From an uncultured Eubacteriales bacterium (GTDB taxonomy: Bacteria; Bacillota; Clostridia; Oscillospirales; Oscillospiraceae): a stretch of 64,000 nucleotides of DNA. Location: positions 44,174 through 108,173 of the forward strand of contig ONNS01000012.1 in the NCBI GenBank assembly GCA_900319275.1, read 5' to 3'. Below, piece by piece: positions 2,107 through 38,234 of this stretch. How positions within the stretch are numbered: the stretch's first letter is position 1; each line of letters begins with the position of its first letter. A program made the position numbers and the translations under genes. Below the pieces are notes generated by a model. The model did not search any database. It was not told the origin of the DNA and saw nothing but the letters and a program-made list of their open reading frames with translations.

Positions 2107-2748
2107 TTACGTTTGATCAGGAAGGATACGCTTTTCTGCCCCTGCACAGATTCGATCCGCTTTTTCCCGCTGCTGAGTGAGCGTCAGCTCATTTTCCCGG
2201 CGCGTGACAAAGCGGAAGGTCTCGTCCTCACTGCGGGCAGCCTGCCCCAGCAGATAGTACCGGCAGCTCTCGGTGACAGACAGCGCCATGCGGGCCGCCG
2301 CACTTACATAGACGGCTGATTGCGCATCACAGAGCGGGTCAAGCTCTTCCAGCAGATCCAGAAGACTACCCGCCATGCACACGAGCTCGTTGGCGATCGC
2401 GCAGGATGCCTCCAGGGCGGGCTGGAAGCGCTGGGTGTCATTGTCCCGCAAAGCGCGACGAAGCGGTGCGCGGCAGCGATTGTCCTCGTCGATCAGCTGC
2501 AGCATATACTGCCGCAGATTTTCGAGATTGCGTGTCACATAGTCAAGCCGCTCACTGCTACCAAGCCGCGCTTCGCTCAGCCGCGCCGCGCGCAGGGCGA
2601 GCGCAAAGGCGTTTGCCGCGCTCGCCGCCGCTGCCGTCCCGACGTCGGTATGGCTCTCCGGATCGGCGACGATCTGGCTGAGTTCCGCGGTACTCTTGGT
2701 TTTAAAAACCTCAATGACGATTTTTTTCTTTTCCTGGTTTTCAGCCAT
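2107..2748 (-). CDS. Degenerate cyclodeaminase/cyclohydrolase family protein (FTCD_C-like)
   Basis: A 213-residue, all-helical, alanine-rich protein. Length, helix pattern and the run of small residues after an N-terminal acidic segment (residues about 30-60) resemble the formiminotetrahydrofolate cyclodeaminase/methenyl-THF cyclohydrolase fold. The usual PTPGGGS-type substrate loop near the N terminus is replaced by SHTDVGT, so catalysis of the classical reaction is doubtful. It starts 10 bases after the prfC stop and is clearly in that operon. No folate genes are adjacent. Family membership is moderate confidence; function is unknown. Confidence 0.55.
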   Translation of the reverse strand: MAENQEKKKIVIEVFKTKSTAELSQIVADPESHTDVGTAAAASAANAFALALRAARLSEARLGSSERLDYVTRNLENLRQYMLQLIDEDNRCRAPLRRALRDNDTQRFQPALEASCAIANELVCMAGSLLDLLEELDPLCDAQSAVYVSAAARMALSVTESCRYYLLGQAARSEDETFRFVTRRENELTLTQQREKADRICAGAEKRILPDQT

Positions 2749-2758
2749 GTCAGCACCT

Positions 2759-4351
2759 TTAATCCTGATTGAATTCCTTCAGCTCCAGTCCTGGATTCTT
2801 CTGCAGTGCCCAGTTGATACACCATTCCGAGGTGAACAGCAGCAGATTGTTGCCCTTGAAATCCTGTACCCACTTGGTATCGCTGGTCAGATTCAGGCTG
2901 GAAATGTCAATATTCTCATTCTCGACCCAGCGGACAAGTTCAAAGGGCAGGTTGCGGCGATGGACTTCAACGCCGTACTCGGTGCGAAGCCTGTACTCGA
3001 GCACCTCAAACTGCAGTACACCGACGACGCCGACGATGACCTCCTCAACACCGGTATACGGCTCGTGGAAGATCTGGATCGCGCCCTCCTGAGCGATCTG
3101 CATGATACCCTTTTCAAACTGCTTGCGCTTCATCGTGTCGATACGCTCGACGCCGGCGAAGTGCTCGGGGGCGAAGGTCGGGATGCCTTCAAAGCAGACC
3201 TCCATCCCCTTCTCGCAGATCGTATCGCCGATCGAGAAGATGCCGGGGTCAAAGACGCCGATGATGTCGCCCGCATAGGCCGTGTCGATGACCGCGCGGT
3301 CCTGAGCCATCAGCTGCTGCGGCTGGGCCAGGCGCAGCGCCTTGCCGCCCTGTACATGGAAATATTCCCGCTCGCGCTCAAACTTGCCCGAGCAGATACG
3401 CATAAACGCGATCCTGTCGCGGTGAGCCTTATTCATATTGGCCTGGATCTTGAACACAAAAGCCGAAAAGCGCTCGTCAAAGGGATCGATGATCTCCTCG
3501 CCCGACACGCGCGAGAGCGGCGGCATCGTCAGCTTCAGGAAGCTCTCAAGAAAGGGCTCAACGCCGAAGTTATTGAGCGCCGAGCCGAAAAACACCGGAC
3601 TCAGCCGACCGGCGCGAACCTCCTGGATATCAAAGTCAAAGCCGGCGCCGTCCAGCAGCTCGATATCGTCCGAGAGCGTCTGCCGAAGCCGCGGCCCGAT
3701 CAGCTCATCGAGCTTTTCGGTCTCGTCCAGATGGCATTCGATCGCACGGATTTTACTCTGGCCGCGGTGGAATTCGTTAAAGGCCAGAATCTCCCGCCGT
3801 TCACGGTCATAGACGCCCTTGAAGTCCTGGCCGCAGCCGATCGGCCAGTTCATCGGATAGGTACCGATACCGAACTCGTTCTCCAGCTGCTCCATCAGCT
3901 CGTAGGGGCTGCGGGCCTCGCGGTCGAGCTTATTGATGAAGGTAAAGATCGGGATGTGACGCATCGCGCAGATCTTGAAGAGCTTGCGCGTCTGCGGCTC
4001 GATGCCTTTGGCGGCGTCGATGACCATGACGGCGCTGTCGGCGGCCATCAGGGTACGGTAGGTATCCTCGGAAAAATCCTGGTGTCCCGGCGTATCAAGG
4101 ATGTTGATGCAGTAGCCCTCATATTCAAACTGCATGACGGAGGACGTGATGGAAATACCGCGCTGCTTTTCAAGCTCCATCCAGTCAGACACCGCGTGAC
4201 GGGCCGTTGCCTTTCCCTTGACCGAGCCCGCCTGCTGAATGGCTCCGCCGTAGAGCAGCAGCTTTTCCGTTAATGTAGTCTTACCGGCGTCCGGGTGCGA
4301 GATAATGGCAAAGGTTCGGCGCCGTTCGATTTCTTTTTGCAGATCAGTCAT
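2759..4351 (-). CDS. prfC: Peptide chain release factor 3
   Basis: A 530-residue translational GTPase of full RF3 length. The G1 loop HPDAGKTT is at about 19-26, the G3 motif DTPGH at 86-90 and the G4 motif NKLD at 140-143, followed by the RF3-type insertion and C-terminal beta-barrel domains. RF3 removes RF1 or RF2 from the ribosome after peptide release, in the cytoplasm. The AAAGGA site lies about 12 bases from the ATG, which is long but the start matches the family. The gene follows a three-hairpin repeat and is the first gene of a unit with the cyclodeaminase-like gene. Confidence 0.97.
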   Translation of the reverse strand: MTDLQKEIERRRTFAIISHPDAGKTTLTEKLLLYGGAIQQAGSVKGKATARHAVSDWMELEKQRGISITSSVMQFEYEGYCINILDTPGHQDFSEDTYRTLMAADSAVMVIDAAKGIEPQTRKLFKICAMRHIPIFTFINKLDREARSPYELMEQLENEFGIGTYPMNWPIGCGQDFKGVYDRERREILAFNEFHRGQSKIRAIECHLDETEKLDELIGPRLRQTLSDDIELLDGAGFDFDIQEVRAGRLSPVFFGSALNNFGVEPFLESFLKLTMPPLSRVSGEEIIDPFDERFSAFVFKIQANMNKAHRDRIAFMRICSGKFEREREYFHVQGGKALRLAQPQQLMAQDRAVIDTAYAGDIIGVFDPGIFSIGDTICEKGMEVCFEGIPTFAPEHFAGVERIDTMKRKQFEKGIMQIAQEGAIQIFHEPYTGVEEVIVGVVGVLQFEVLEYRLRTEYGVEVHRRNLPFELVRWVENENIDISSLNLTSDTKWVQDFKGNNLLLFTSEWCINWALQKNPGLELKEFNQD

Positions 4352-4513
4352 ATATGCTTCAATCCTTTTGTTTCATTCATTGGATGCAAGTCCGATTTTC
4401 ATATTTCCCGCAATCATTCATTTCGATTAAGGCGGAGAACAATTCGATATTGTATTTTTATGCCAATCAGTCATAGATACAGTTCGATCCTTCTGTCAGC
4501 TTCAGTGATTTCC

Positions 4514-4632
4514 GCGAAGTATACCATAAGGCCTCTGCCTTATGGTATACTTCGCCATGTTTTTCGGTTGCCGCGCAAGCGGCGAGAAAAACGGCATAAA
4601 TCAAATATAGTAAGCGCGTTTGCGCTTACTAT
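4514..4632. repeat. Three-hairpin dispersed repeat, copy 1 (prfC leader)
   Basis: Three stem-loops lie in a row: a perfect 19-bp stem (4514-4532 with 4537-4555), a middle hairpin (4559-4592, stems GTTTTTC/GAAAAAC and GCCGC/GCGGC) and a perfect 11-bp stem (4607-4617 with 4622-4632). The middle block and its flanks are almost identical to the copy at 58658-58773 in inverted orientation, and partly to 39120-39218. Most of the 302-base gap between the nucleotidase and prfC is this element; between it and prfC (4352-4513) I see nothing else recognisable. Confidence 0.85.
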
Positions 4633-10836: not shown

Positions 10837-13230
10837 TCAATCCAGTTTTTTCATATTCTGTGCTGCGATGCGCAGCATCAGCTTCTTGATACCGACACGC
10901 TCAAACTGCACCTCGATCAGAAAATCGCCGCCCATCGGCGTCATTTTTGTCAGGCTCCCCACACCGAAGGCCTTATGCTCGACCCTGTCCCCCACGGCAA
11001 AGCTGGCTTTGGGCGTCTCATCGCGCGGCGCGGCGATCGGTGCGGTTTTTCGGGTCGTTGTCCGATAGTTGTCGGCGGAGCGCCGGTAGGAATAACTGCT
11101 GTCGTAGCTGTCCGAATAGCTGTTGTCGTGATAGCCATAGCCACGCTTCTCGTTTTTCTTATCAAGTGTCTCCTCCGGCAGCTCATCGACAAAGCGCGAG
11201 GGCTTATAGGCGTTTGTACGGCCGAAGATCATGCGCTGTCTCGCACAGACGAGGTGCAGATGCTCTCTTGCGCGGGTAATGGCCACATAGCAGAGCCGCC
11301 GCTCCTCTTCCATCTCCTCCGGTTCGCCGATGGCGCGCTGGCCGGGGAAGATGCCCTCCTCCATGCCGACGATGAAAACCGTCGGGAATTCGAGCCCCTT
11401 GGCCGCGTGCATCGTCATCATCACCACGCTGTCGGATTCGCGGTCATAGTTGTCGAGATCGGTATAGAGAGCGACATCCGCCAGAAAGCCGGAGAGCGTA
11501 TTGTCACCGGATTCCTTCTGGTAGCCGAGGATCGTGGATTTGAGCTCGCGCACGTTTTCGGCGCGCGTCGTGTCCTCAACGGTGTTTTTTTCTTCCAACA
11601 TGCGGAGATAACCGGTGCGCGCAAGTACCTCGTCAAGCAGGAAATCCGGTTCAGACTCCGCAGAGAGCCGGTGCAGCTCGTCGATCATGCCGGCAAGCTC
11701 ACGCATGCGGATCGCGGCGCGGCTCAGCTGCGGAAATTCGTCGGCGCGGCGCAATATCGCATACAGGCTGCACCCCTGATCGAGCGCGAGCTCCTGGGCA
11801 GTCTCGACGCTTTTAGCACCGATGCCGCGCGGCGGGTTATTGATGATACGCACAAGCCGCAAATCGTCGCTCGGCGTGTTGATGACACATAGATAGGCCA
11901 GCACATCCTTCACCTCTGCGCGGTCAAAGAAGCGCGTGCCGCCAATGATGCGATACGGTATGCCGCTGCGCTTGAAGGCGTACTCGAGCTGGTTGGACTG
12001 GGCGTTCATGCGGTAAAGCACGGCATTGTCACGCCAATGGCCGCCCTTACTGTAGGCGGCGAGGATCTCGGAGGCGACATACTCCGCCTCTTCATGCTCG
12101 TTGCCGGCGAAGTAAAGCTGCAGCTTTTCCCCTCGCTTTTTATCCGTCCAGAGCGTTTTCCCCTTCCGCATCCGGTTGCAGCTGATGACGGCGTTGGCCG
12201 CCTCCAGGATATTGCCGGTGCTGCGGTAATTCTGCTCGAGTCGGATCGTCCGGCAGGACTTGTACTCACTTTCAAACGAGAGGATGTTTTCGATCGTAGC
12301 ACCGCGGAATTTATAGATGCTCTGGTCGTCGTCACCGACAACGCAGATATTCTCCCAGCCGCCGGCCAGAGTTTTGGCCAGCAGATACTGCAGGTGGTTC
12401 GTGTCCTGGTACTCATCGACCAGCACATACTGAAAACGCCGCTGCCAGTAGGCGCAGGTCTCTTCATTTTCCTGCAGCAGCTTGACGGTAAAGAAGATCA
12501 GATCGTCAAAGTCCATGGCGCCGGCCGTGAACATGCGGCGCATATACTCACTGTAGATCTCACCGATATGGATCTTGCGCGCGTCGCCGCTGCGCCGGGC
12601 TTCGTTCAGATAGGCCGCCGCGCCGAGCTGGGCATCCTTTGCCGCGCTGATCGCCGCAAGGACCGCGCGAGGGGCAAAGGTCTTTTCGTCGAGATCCATG
12701 TCACGGACGATATGTTTTATGAGACTCTGGCTGTCGGATGTATCATAGATCGTGAAGTCCGAGGGGAAGCCGAGTTTCTCGGCGTCGCGTCGCAGGATCC
12801 GCACGCAGGCCGAGTGGAAGGTGCAGGCCCAGATATCGTTGGCTTCCGGGCCGATCCGGCGCTCGAGTCTCTCCTTGAGCTCGCCGGCGGCCTTATTCGT
12901 AAAGGTGATTGCCAGAATGCGCCAGGGGGCAACGGGATCGAGCGCGGCGGCACGGCGGCCGTCTTCGCTGCCCGCTTCGATCGCGGCGAGCATCTCCTCG
13001 TCGGCATAGGGCGGCAGCTCACGGCTGTCGCTGGCCCTGCCATATCTCAGCAGGTTGGCAATGCGGTCAATTAGAACCGTGGTCTTGCCGCTTCCGGCAC
13101 CGGCCAGGATCAGCAATGGCCCCTCCGTGGCCAGTACCGCCTCCAGCTGCATAGGGTTCAAGTCGGGAAAGTCGGAGCGAATCAGCTTTTTGCGCGCTTC
13201 GACAAATCGGGTTTCAAAATCAGTCATCAT
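10837..13230 (-). CDS. pcrA: ATP-dependent DNA helicase PcrA/UvrD
   Basis: A roughly 797-residue SF1A helicase. Walker A is GAGSGKT near residue 44-50, followed by the further motifs TFTNKAAGELKERL, DEYQDTN, GDDDQSIYKFRGA, QNYRS and VMMTMHAAKGLEFPTVF. After the helicase core there is a Ser/Tyr-rich low-complexity linker (about 695-745) and the PcrA-type C-terminal Tudor-like domain (VGDRVEHKAFGVGSL). It unwinds DNA in repair and removes transcription-replication conflicts. The start is one of two adjacent ATGs (13230, 13227); there is no Shine-Dalgarno, and the promoter position predicts a leaderless message. Confidence 0.95.
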   Translation of the reverse strand: MMTDFETRFVEARKKLIRSDFPDLNPMQLEAVLATEGPLLILAGAGSGKTTVLIDRIANLLRYGRASDSRELPPYADEEMLAAIEAGSEDGRRAAALDPVAPWRILAITFTNKAAGELKERLERRIGPEANDIWACTFHSACVRILRRDAEKLGFPSDFTIYDTSDSQSLIKHIVRDMDLDEKTFAPRAVLAAISAAKDAQLGAAAYLNEARRSGDARKIHIGEIYSEYMRRMFTAGAMDFDDLIFFTVKLLQENEETCAYWQRRFQYVLVDEYQDTNHLQYLLAKTLAGGWENICVVGDDDQSIYKFRGATIENILSFESEYKSCRTIRLEQNYRSTGNILEAANAVISCNRMRKGKTLWTDKKRGEKLQLYFAGNEHEEAEYVASEILAAYSKGGHWRDNAVLYRMNAQSNQLEYAFKRSGIPYRIIGGTRFFDRAEVKDVLAYLCVINTPSDDLRLVRIINNPPRGIGAKSVETAQELALDQGCSLYAILRRADEFPQLSRAAIRMRELAGMIDELHRLSAESEPDFLLDEVLARTGYLRMLEEKNTVEDTTRAENVRELKSTILGYQKESGDNTLSGFLADVALYTDLDNYDRESDSVVMMTMHAAKGLEFPTVFIVGMEEGIFPGQRAIGEPEEMEEERRLCYVAITRAREHLHLVCARQRMIFGRTNAYKPSRFVDELPEETLDKKNEKRGYGYHDNSYSDSYDSSYSYRRSADNYRTTTRKTAPIAAPRDETPKASFAVGDRVEHKAFGVGSLTKMTPMGGDFLIEVQFERVGIKKLMLRIAAQNMKKLD

Positions 13231-33868: not shown

Positions 33869-34459
33869 TTACAACTCCTTGAGGATTTCGGCAAACAGCT
33901 GTTCCCTGCCCTGCCCTTTTTCCGCGGAGAACGGGATCAGCGTGACCGTCTCCGGGAGAGACAGCGTCTCGCGGATCAGGGCGAGATTCGGCTCGATCTC
34001 GCTCTTTTTCAGCTTGTCGAGCTTGTTGGCCACGACGACAAGACGGCAGTCGGCACTATTGAACCATTTGGCCATCGTGATGTCATCGGCCGTCGGTTTA
34101 TGGCGGGCATCGACGATCATCACACCGAGCGTGATCAGGCCCTTGGCGGCAAAGAAATCCTCCATCAGCCGCCCCCAGCGATCCCGCTCGGATTGCGAGA
34201 CCTTAGCATAACCATAGCCGGGCAGGTCGACAAAATAGCATTTCCCGTCGATCCGGAAATAGTTGACATGTACGGTCTTGCCGGGCTGGGCGCCGACACG
34301 GGCAAAGTTTTTGCGGTTCAGCAGCCGGTTCAGTACCGAGGATTTGCCGACGTTCGATTTGCCGGCAAATACGATGGAAGGCAGGCTCGACTGGATAAAC
34401 TGGCCGGGACTGGCCGCCGATTTAATGAACTCGGCGTTATTGACATTCAGCGTATTCAT
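33869..34459 (-). CDS. engB: Ribosome biogenesis GTPase EngB/YsxC
   Basis: A 196-residue Era-like GTPase with G1 GKSNVGKSS, G3 DLPGYG and G4 NKLD motifs; it assists 50S subunit assembly. The start is the ATG at 34459: it gives family length, while the upstream open frame is a shadow of lon. Seven bases separate it from the lon stop. In Bacillus lonA-ysxC are neighbours too. Confidence 0.95.
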   Translation of the reverse strand: MNTLNVNNAEFIKSAASPGQFIQSSLPSIVFAGKSNVGKSSVLNRLLNRKNFARVGAQPGKTVHVNYFRIDGKCYFVDLPGYGYAKVSQSERDRWGRLMEDFFAAKGLITLGVMIVDARHKPTADDITMAKWFNSADCRLVVVANKLDKLKKSEIEPNLALIRETLSLPETVTLIPFSAEKGQGREQLFAEILKEL

Positions 34460-34466
34460 GGCATTC

Positions 34467-36803
34467 TCACTGGCTGATCGCCGCAGCCTCACGCACCGGG
34501 GCGGCTGACGGATGATATTCCGGGAAAAACGGCTGCGCCGCATCGCGGAGCAGCGCCACGTCCAGCGCCTCGTCTGCATGGCTGACCGGCACGAAGCGCA
34601 GCGCCGCGCGCACGGTCGGGTCGATATCGGCGAGGTCGGCCTCGTTCTCACGTGGGATGATAACCGTGGTCTCTCCCGCACGGAAGGCCGCCATGGTCTT
34701 CTCGCGCAGGCCGCCGATCGGCAGCACACGGCCGCGCAGCGTGATCTCACCGGTCATGGCAACCTCGTGGCGCACCGGGGTGCCCGTCAGCGCCGAGATG
34801 ACGGCGATCGTCACGGTAATACCGGCAGAAGGACCGTCCTTCGGCACCGCCCCCTCCGGGAAATGGATATGGATATCTTTATTCTTATAAAACTCGGGAT
34901 CAATACCGAGCAGCTCCGCGCGGCTGCGGATATAGCTGATGGCCGCCCGGGCCGACTCCTTCATCACGTCGCCGAGATTGCCGGTGAGCTCGAGTTTTCC
35001 GCTGCCGGGCAGCACGGCGACCTCCACATCCAGCACTTCCCCGCCGACCGAGGTCCAGGCGAGGCCGCGCACCAGGCCGATCTCGTCGCGCAGCCGGAAC
35101 TCATCACTCTTGAACTTGGCCGGGCCAAGCAGTCGTTCAAGACTGTCCGGCCGAACGGTAACGGATTTTCTCCCGTTTGCCACGATCTCGCCGGCAGTCT
35201 TACGGCAAATAGCGGCAATTTCCCGCTCGAGCGTGCGCACGCCGGATTCCCGGGTGTAAGAGCGGATCACGGCACGGATGGCCTCGTCGCCGAGCTTCAG
35301 CTGTGCGGCCTTCAGACCGTGCTTTTTGCGCTGCTTGGGCAGCAGATGCTGCTTGGCGATCTGCAGCTTTTCCTCGTCAGTATAGCTGGAGAGCTCGATA
35401 ACCTCCATACGGTCGAGCAGGGCGCGCGGGATCGTATCGGTCGTGTTGGCGGTCGTGATAAAGAAGACCTCGCTGAGATCGAATGGCACTTCCAGGAAGT
35501 GATCCCGGAAGCTGCTGTTCTGTTCGGGGTCCAGCGCCTCAAGCAGCGCAGCCGAGGGGTCGCCGCGGTAGTCGCTGCCGAGCTTGTCGATCTCATCGAG
35601 CACCAGCAAGGGATTGCAGGTGCCAGCCTGCATGATGCCGTTGATGATACGCCCCGGCATTGAGCCGATATAGGTGCGGCGGTGGCCGCGGATTTCAGCC
35701 TCGTCATGTACGCCGCCTAGGCCGGTCCCCGGAGGGCCGACCAGGCAGATCAGTCCGCCCTTGATATCGCTTGAGAGCTGCTTGACGGCCAGATACTCCA
35801 GAATGCGCTCCTTGACCTTTTCGAGTCCAAAATGGTCGTCGTCCAGCACGCGTCTCGCCTTTTCGATGTCCACTGTCTCCTGGCTTTTCTTTCCCCAGGG
35901 GATTTCAAGCACCGTGTCAAGATAGCTGCGGATCACCGCGGCCTCGGACGAGCCGAAGGGCTGCTTTTTCAGGTGAGAGAGCTCCTTGCGAAGTTTTTTG
36001 TGGATTTCCTCGCTGACGGGCAGCGCATCGAGCCGTGCACGGTAGTCGTCGTCATCCTCAGCGCTGTCTTCACCGAGCTCGGCCTGGATAAGCTTGAGTT
36101 CCTCGCGCAGATAGTATTCGCGGTTATTGCGGTTCATCTGTTCCGCCGTGGCCGCGTTGAGCTCCTGCTCGATGCTCATGATCTCGATCTCGTTGGAGAG
36201 CAGGCGGTTAAGGAGCATCAAGCGGCGAGAGAGCATGCACTCCTCTAATATGGCCTGCTTGTCCTCAAAGCTCAGACGCACGTGCTGGGCTATGTAATAC
36301 CCGACAAAACTGAGATTCGGGTTGGAGAGCACATTGAGTATCTGCTCGTGGGGCATGGCATCGTCCAGATGCAGATATTCGCTGAAATTCTCCAGGCAGC
36401 TGCGCATCAGCGCCTCGAGACGCTTGCTGTTGCTGCGCTCCGGCCGGTCAGGCAGCTCGCGCACGACGCCGGAATAGCCCTTTGCATCCATGTCCGCACT
36501 CTGCAGTTCGGCACGGTACAGCCCTTCGACCATGACGCGAACGCCGCCCTGCTGCTGCCGCAGCTGCTGGCGAATGCGGCACACCACGCCAACGGAATAC
36601 AGATCCTCTGCCTGCGGCAGATCGACGCTGATATCCCGCTGTGCGACTAAAAATACCAGGTGCGCACCGCGATTGGCCTCCATCAGCGCCGTCGTGGAAC
36701 CGGCGCGCTCAACATCGAAGGTCAGTGACATACCGGGATACACATTGATCCCGCGCATAGGCAGCAACGGCAGCTGCATCCACTTGTTTTGATTCTCGTC
36801 CAT
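34467..36803 (-). CDS. lon: Lon protease with a deleted Walker A region
   Basis: A 778-residue protein colinear with LonA: substrate-binding N domain (1-300), AAA+ module, and serine protease with S659 (DGPSAG) and K702 (GGLREK). In the AAA+ module GPPGTG (356-361) is followed directly by L362 of LGGVHDEAEIRGHRR. Normal Lon has about 20 residues between these points (GKT[S] and the following helix). Catalytic dyad positions are exactly 20 lower than in E. coli. Walker B (LLVLDEIDK), the sensor region (TTANTTDTIP) and DRMEVI are intact and the frame is open. ATP binding should be lost; peptidase activity could remain. Start at 36803 with GGAGG. Either a real lineage mutation or an assembly error. 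Confidence 0.93.
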   Translation of the reverse strand: MDENQNKWMQLPLLPMRGINVYPGMSLTFDVERAGSTTALMEANRGAHLVFLVAQRDISVDLPQAEDLYSVGVVCRIRQQLRQQQGGVRVMVEGLYRAELQSADMDAKGYSGVVRELPDRPERSNSKRLEALMRSCLENFSEYLHLDDAMPHEQILNVLSNPNLSFVGYYIAQHVRLSFEDKQAILEECMLSRRLMLLNRLLSNEIEIMSIEQELNAATAEQMNRNNREYYLREELKLIQAELGEDSAEDDDDYRARLDALPVSEEIHKKLRKELSHLKKQPFGSSEAAVIRSYLDTVLEIPWGKKSQETVDIEKARRVLDDDHFGLEKVKERILEYLAVKQLSSDIKGGLICLVGPPGTGLGGVHDEAEIRGHRRTYIGSMPGRIINGIMQAGTCNPLLVLDEIDKLGSDYRGDPSAALLEALDPEQNSSFRDHFLEVPFDLSEVFFITTANTTDTIPRALLDRMEVIELSSYTDEEKLQIAKQHLLPKQRKKHGLKAAQLKLGDEAIRAVIRSYTRESGVRTLEREIAAICRKTAGEIVANGRKSVTVRPDSLERLLGPAKFKSDEFRLRDEIGLVRGLAWTSVGGEVLDVEVAVLPGSGKLELTGNLGDVMKESARAAISYIRSRAELLGIDPEFYKNKDIHIHFPEGAVPKDGPSAGITVTIAVISALTGTPVRHEVAMTGEITLRGRVLPIGGLREKTMAAFRAGETTVIIPRENEADLADIDPTVRAALRFVPVSHADEALDVALLRDAAQPFFPEYHPSAAPVREAAAISQ

Positions 36804-36890
36804 GGGTGTCCTCCTATGGATTATCAGATACGTGTAGATTGTCAATGGGCGCACCGTCTCCGGTATCCCGGCGGCAGAGCGCCCAAACTG

Positions 36891-38234
36891 TTATTCTGAT
36901 ACCTGCTTCTCTTTGTCGTCCGAAGGCTGCCTGGCGGCAGACTCGGGCAGCCGCCTGGTTTTCTTCTCCGGAAGCGGTTTGTTGATATGCTCGATCAGCG
37001 GGAGCGTTCCTTCTCTGACAGACTCGGCGGTTACAAGCACACGGCTGACGGTCGGATCGGAGGGGACGGTATACATGACCTCGCCCATGACGCTCTCCAT
37101 GACACTGCGCAGGCCGCGCGCGCCGATCTTCCGCTCGATAGCTTTATCGGCCACGGCTTCGAGCGCTTCCGGCTCAAACTCGAGCTTGACGCCGTCATAA
37201 CGCATCAGTACCTGATACTGCTTGGTCATCGCGTTTTTCGGCTCGGTCAGGATACGCACCAGATCACTGCGATCGAGCGTGTCAAGCGTCGCCACAACCG
37301 GCAGACGACCGATCAGCTCGGGGATAATGCCAAATTTTAGCAGATCGTGCTGTTGGACTTCAGAGAGGATCTTGCCCACGTCTCGCTCGGCCTTGCTTGT
37401 AATGTCGGCACCAAAGCCCATGCTCTTCTTGTCGGTGCGCCGCTCGATGATTTTATCCAGCCCGTCGAATGCGCCGCCGCAGATAAAGAGGATATTCGAC
37501 GTATCGACCTGAATGAACTCCTGATGCGGATGCTTGCGCCCACCCTGCGGCGGGACGTTTGCGACGGTACCCTCGAGCAGCTTCAACAGCGCCTGCTGCA
37601 CGCCCTCGCCGCTGACGTCACGGGTGATGGACGTGTTTTCGCTCTTGCGGGCGATCTTGTCGATCTCGTCGATATAGATAATGCCGCGCTGGGCGCGCTC
37701 GACGTCGAAATCGGCGGCCTGCAGCAGCTTTAAAATCACGTTCTCCACATCCTCGCCGACATAGCCGGCCTCGGTCAGTGTGGTCGCATCGGCAATGGCA
37801 AAGGGTACGTCCAGCATTTTCGCCATAGTCTGAGCAAACAGCGTCTTACCGCTGCCGGTGGGGCCGATCAGCAGGATATTGCTCTTTTGAAGCTCCACAT
37901 CGTTCTCTCTGGCGTGCAGGATGCGCTTATAGTGGTTGTAGACAGCCACGCTCAGCACCTGCTTGGCCCGCTCCTGACCGATTACATAATCGTCAAGCTT
38001 CGCCTTGATCTGCATAGGCTTGGGCAGCTTGTCAAACACCAGGGGCTTACCGCCATAATTGTCAGCGAACTGAGAATCATAGTCCTCTTCTCCGTCTGAG
38101 ACGAGACTGAGACACATGCGCAGACACTCATCACAGATATAGGCGCCGTTACCGGCCACCAAGCGGTTCACCATGCCCTGGGGCTTGCCGCAGAACGAGC
38201 AGCGGATGCTTTTTCTGTCTTCATTCCTTGCCAT
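36891..38234 (-). CDS. clpX: ATP-dependent Clp protease ATP-binding subunit ClpX
   Basis: A 447-residue unfoldase. The N-terminal zinc-binding domain has C12, C15, C34 and C37; Walker A GPTGSGKT is at 124-131, Walker [10 protein letters not shown] near 185-194, and the ClpP-docking region (KSMGFGADI) follows. The C-terminal extension after residue 415 is basic and poorly conserved. It feeds unfolded substrates to ClpP. A GC-rich cluster of hairpins separates it from clpP; an inverted repeat GGGCGC/GCGCCC (36846-36880) lies in the gap to lon, where TTGACA-16-TAATCC could be a weak separate lon promoter. Confidence 0.97.

Follow-up and report, generated by a model that had tools for sequence, protein, structure and literature searches.

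Introduction

Lon proteases are sorted into the types LonA, LonB and LonC and, according to the available part of PMC9569914, 60 residues lie between the Walker A lysine and the Walker B aspartate in LonA; the architectures found in Lon proteins are surveyed in PMC2605481, likewise available in part. The LonC proteases (MtaLonC, TTC1975) are described in the accessible text of PMC3391209 as having no ATPase activity and no LonA N-domain, and in that of PMC8368198 Walker mutants of LONP1/Lon still multimerise, with both ATPase and protease activity lost.

Here we describe a lonA gene without its P-loop on a 64-kb stretch of DNA, referred to below as the window, whose source is an uncultured, gut-type member of the Oscillospiraceae/Ruminococcaceae, a placement made through its nearest relative RUG11160 (Lon identity 88% by tblastn and 91% by alignment). 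The encoded protein shares with LonA (TIGR00763; solved chains such as 6u5z, 7p6u and 3m6a) the domain order, the Walker B motif, the lid and the Ser-Lys dyad, and differs from it in the absence of the Walker A Lys-Thr, the P-loop helix and the following strand. Its likeness to LonC, as far as the excerpt of PMC3391209 describes that type, lies in an AAA+ module without a working Walker A motif; LonC, however, forms a separate clade with two insertions of its own in the protease domain and lacks the LonA N-domain, whereas the window Lon carries this domain and its nearest relatives have complete LonA motifs. The protease part showed no insertion relative to one LonA relative, in an alignment made to LonA only. 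With the Walker A point mutant K529A of LONP1 (PMC8368198, in the part available) the window Lon may have in common the expected loss of ATP hydrolysis and possibly a dominant-negative effect, but in K529A a single residue is changed in a complete fold, whereas 20 residues are absent here. A literature search of open-licence papers (titles and abstract starts) gave, among the matches listed, no natural LonA with a deleted P-loop. On balance we read the window gene as a very recent loss-of-function allele, that is, a 60-base in-frame deletion in an otherwise ordinary and constrained lonA, and consider this reading moderately probable.

Results

The lonA Gene Lacks 60 Bases Between GPPGTG and LGG

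The gene lies on the minus strand in a single uninterrupted open frame (34467..36854) of 795 aa from a GTG start. The product likely starts at the MDENQ encoded from 36803, which gives 778 residues (34470..36803, minus strand, excluding the stop codon at 34467-34469). The TIGR00763 model (lon, endopeptidase La) scored 829.9 bits on the protein, above its cut-off of 608.05, and the narrower model NF008053 gave 753.8, under its cut-off of 891. By Pfam, the domain order is LON N-terminal domain (PF02190, residues 28-220 of the 795-aa frame, 125.7 bits), AAA+ domain with the deletion, lid (PF22667, 79 bits) and Lon_C protease domain (PF05362, 290.4 bits); the AAA match begins only behind the P-loop. 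Walker B is LLVLDEIDK at residues 399-407, stretches that we take to be sensor-1 and the arginine finger are present, and the presumed catalytic dyad runs from the Ser659 codon (34827-34829) to the Lys702 codon (34698-34700), both on the minus strand. The gene is flanked upstream by what we take to be clpX (36891..38234, minus strand), whose P-loop GPTGSGKT is intact, and downstream by a presumed engB/ysxC-type GTPase gene (33869..34459, minus strand) with the motif GKSNVGKSS and a likely start inside the frame 33869-34750.

The GPPGTG motif occupies residues 356-361 (numbered from MDENQ) and is followed at once by LGGVHDEAEIRGHRR, so that 60 bases, or 20 residues, are absent between GPPGTG and LGG with the reading frame kept. 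The junction, within the minus-strand DNA at 35682-35738, covers 35715..35723 and consists of Gly codon 361 (the last of GPPGTG), Leu codon CTA 362 and Gly codon 363 (the first of LGG). The complete Walker A motif, GxxGxGK[T/S], is thus absent, the Lys-Thr being gone together with 18 further residues. In the RUG11160 Lon the same segment is 20 residues longer (361-380 in its own numbering), and the gap is also 20 residues relative to the congeners G023 and G034. Otherwise the window and RUG11160 genes differ in length by a gap of one residue within an acidic stretch and by 19 additional residues at the 5′ end, the latter belonging to the stop-to-stop frame of the window. The original prediction, made from the letters of the window, had described a precise in-frame P-loop deletion at this place in an open frame, with Walker B intact and the Ser-Lys dyad intact at S659 and K702, and this description proved exact.

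The Deletion Is a Singleton Among the Genomes Examined

In order to place the deletion among relatives, a protein search was run over 36 same-genus genomes (congeners) and 23 other members of the order, and the P-loop region was then read; 57 named loci, for the most part MAGs of Clostridia from rumen and gut to judge by their titles, were read as well. The P-loop was intact in 32 of the 36 congeners, the remaining four being left out for contigs ending inside lon (G021, G025) or for having only other lon matches (G007, G014), and in 22 of the 23 other order members, G056 giving only a weak match. A full frame and an intact P-loop were likewise found in 55 of the 57 named loci, with L087 (cut by a contig end) and L090 (only a Lon C-terminal piece) excluded. 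The sets overlap, and the readable total was 109 loci, 108 of them distinct, since L005 and L036 are the same contig. The P-loop was present in all 109, and the deletion is therefore a singleton in this sample; because the change hits so strongly conserved a motif, chance is not an issue.

A degenerate pattern of the junction, which covers only deletions with these same end points, had no match in genome_contigs (84,980 species genomes in contigs of 3,000 bases or more, from which the genome of the window may have been left out), and the exact 30-base junction had none in the viral_contigs scan. As controls, the pattern without inserted bases does find the window and, with 60 free bases inserted, it recognises 81 of 86 relative loci, missing L029, L030, L083, L087 and L090; L083 has an intact P-loop. 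A fixed subfamily of ATP-blind Lon was therefore rejected, as no other member occurred in the relatives read or, for the same end points, in the genome collection. The relatives thus speak against the special ATP-blind form that the original prediction had put forward as one of two options beside an assembly artefact; both options were fair ones to raise, and the first has gained no positive support.

The Missing Residues Form a Helix and a Core Strand in the Model of a Relative

We modelled the window Lon without its first two residues (52 alignment rows) in AlphaFold2, with the intact RUG11160 Lon as a control (51 rows). The alignments consist of intact Lon sequences, and AlphaFold2 does not measure stability, so that lower confidence is suggestive only. 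In the control model the lost segment forms a helix (361-372) and a strand (376-380) with block pLDDT of 90 and 89; what the window Lon lacks corresponds in this model to the helix of the P-loop and the core strand that follows it. In the window model, residues 360-377 (362-379 from MDENQ) have pLDDT below 50, with no such helix or strand assigned. The five blocks of residues 301-350 scored 72, 80, 73, 77 and 71 in the window model and 83, 89, 85, 87 and 69 in the control, four being lower and one slightly higher; mean pLDDT was 79.7 vs. 83.3 and pTM 0.48 vs. 0.54.

AAA+ proteins that lose the Walker A Lys-Thr can no longer use nucleotides, and the fold should suffer when a helix and a core strand are taken away. 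The deletion would take out all of these elements, and the window Lon should, judging from the models, be ATPase-dead with a damaged AAA+ core: the product would be unable to bind or hydrolyse ATP, its AAA+ domain would fold poorly, and the allele would be one of loss of function or at most a poisoning one. Since the helix and core strand are lost beyond the lysine, a well-formed hexamer appears less likely than in a point mutant, and the earlier suggestion that the protein could still form hexamers is weakened to that extent; should any rings form, no more might be expected of them than a weak cleavage of peptides independent of ATP.

These considerations bear on the possibility that the protein is an adaptive ATP-blind Lon that folds, oligomerises and serves as an ATP-independent peptidase, a DNA binder or a dominant-negative partner, which we consider very improbable. 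The open frame and the intact N-domain, Walker B and Ser-Lys dyad are in keeping with such a role; LonC shows that ATP-independent Lon-like proteases exist (PMC3391209, in its available part), and in human cells the K529A mutant of LONP1 acts as a dominant negative (PMC8368198, excerpt). The accessible part of the latter, however, also states that Walker A and B mutants of LONP1/Lon lose ATPase and protease activity and that the overexpressed LONP1 ones are insoluble, and in the window Lon more than one residue is missing, the models pointing to a helix and a core strand. Moreover, the form did not recur in the relatives that were read or in the scan of the genome collection, and no set of compensating changes is visible, with one window-only change at conserved columns. 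As it stands, a repurposed ATP-blind Lon is without positive support.

An Intact Second LonA-Type Gene Lies in the Same Genome

The original prediction had proposed looking for a second lon elsewhere in the genome, and one was found: contig C155 (L034, G000) carries a LonA-type gene at 2196-4574, with a 793-residue frame and an intact P-loop. It is 26% identical to the first lon in the N-terminal half and 55% in the C-terminal half, and a second lon is common to several congeners (L101-L105). The C155 gene shares 88.5% identity with its counterpart in the genome of RUG11160 (G035) and 61-77% with the second lon genes in four further congeners (G002, G007, G027, G034). Its identity to the second lon of this near relative marks it as a resident paralogue, and a contaminant origin was rejected on the same ground, the level being that found for the first lon.

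A resident second lon would make loss of the first plausible for a living cell, and under the recent-loss reading the intact LonA-type gene and ClpX may cover for the lost Lon. It would also suit a bolder proposal, in which the ATP-driven work passed to the paralogue and a LonA shed its ATP-binding unit in one step, to persist as an ATP-independent peptidase or as a modulator of Lon assembly; we judge this even less probable than the adaptive form discussed above. If real and fixed, the deletion would be a natural test of LonA function once the motor is gone, and of whether cells can spare the first Lon where they have the second, which occurs in part of the genus; at present it is the allele of one draft genome.

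lonA Bears No Trace of Relaxed Constraint

Compared with RUG11160, at a synonymous distance of 0.73, dN/dS was 0.072 for lon (0.098, 0.056 and 0.047 for the N, AAA and protease parts) and 0.053 for 200 codons of engB. At 361 columns with at least 90% agreement among 22 congeners, one difference was found in the window Lon only, six in that of RUG11160 only and 13 in both; at 552 columns with 60% agreement the counts were six, 13 and 50. lonA contains no stops or frameshifts, and its conserved sites show no excess of change. Gradual pseudogene decay was thus rejected, given the open frame, the low dN/dS and the single window-only change at the 361 conserved columns. The remark in the original prediction that the gene is unlike a decaying pseudogene holds for the sequence, but by these signs neither a very recent null allele nor an assembly error would differ from an undecayed gene, and a clean open frame proves neither a working gene nor a real junction. 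The missing trace of relaxed constraint indicates that the deletion is either very young or absent from the organism.

The second possibility, an assembly or library artefact, is a close rival that we regard as quite possible, if somewhat short of probable: the 60 bases would exist in the organism and have been skipped in the draft, and the recent-loss reading has against it that the junction may exist in no cell. The genome is a 161-contig draft, probably a metagenome assembly, with 97.7% completeness and 2.55% contamination, and both the constancy of the P-loop in relatives and the invisibility of relaxed constraint would be expected of a false junction. Furthermore, the contig of congener G025 (C55, L109) ends in lon at 10925, about seven codons past the same spot, and in the MAG RUG447 (L090, 4192-5594) a Lon C-terminal piece stands directly behind, and overlapping, a frame that we take to be folD-like, a join that looks like a misassembly or misjoin or a large deletion. 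This break and this join suggest that lon may be a spot where such assemblies break or misjoin.

Other observations speak against an artefact. The window contains no N, inspection by eye showed no repeat at the junction, the bin yielded no second copy of this lon, and the length of the deletion is a multiple of three. Keeping the frame, which has a chance of 1 in 3, is mildly better expected if the product still matters, and to that extent tells against the recent-loss reading as well. In the part syntenic with G023 and G034 there was no other window-side gap of more than 10 residues, the next largest measuring 10 residues in a weak match to G034, 9 in a match to G023 of 36% identity and 7 in a gene with 75% identity. 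Matches to G023 span about 19.5-48 kb of the window and those to G034 mainly 34-44 kb, with one best aligned piece per frame and antisense frames kept in. A repeat-mediated deletion was also set aside for lack of a repeat visible by eye, though microhomology may have been involved.

The Junction Carries a Rare CTAG

The Leu codon at the junction lies within a CTAG (35717-35720), one of only three in the window (29463, 35717 and 47699), against 37.9 expected from a Markov model (0.08-fold, about 13-fold depleted) and 238 expected from base composition. CTAG is the most depleted of the 16 four-base palindromes in the window, and the other two sites lie outside ATG-started frames of at least 150 aa. 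That one of three sites should coincide with a given junction has a chance probability of about 1.4e-4, for a clue noticed post hoc. At the corresponding place the 108 distinct relative segments have CTC (41), CTG (37), CTT (12), TTG (11) and TTA (7) and never CTA, and no CTAG was found near this Leu in the 109 relative loci; a narrower count of 58 gave the same picture. The junction word is therefore probably new sequence, made by the event itself. As no relative has CTA there, the junction is no plain join of any relative's flanks, and an extra change or an error is needed. A word nearly absent from the long frames of the genome, as if it had never been under the pressure of the cell, would be in line with an artefact; the CTAG nevertheless fits both an assembly error and a young deletion in which a base was added or changed, and does not discriminate between the two.

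The scarcity of CTAG was also seen outside the window, with 2 vs. 26.7 expected in 40 kb of the same contig and, in 80 kb each, 1 vs. 30.5 expected in G023 and 8 vs. 48.0 expected in G034. CTAG was not clearly depleted in L044, L057 and L087, nor in L064, L065 and L091, the latter three with Tissierellales and Peptostreptococcaceae titles; it was depleted in the congener stretches and in many of the named loci (noted for L093-L100 and L107-L108).
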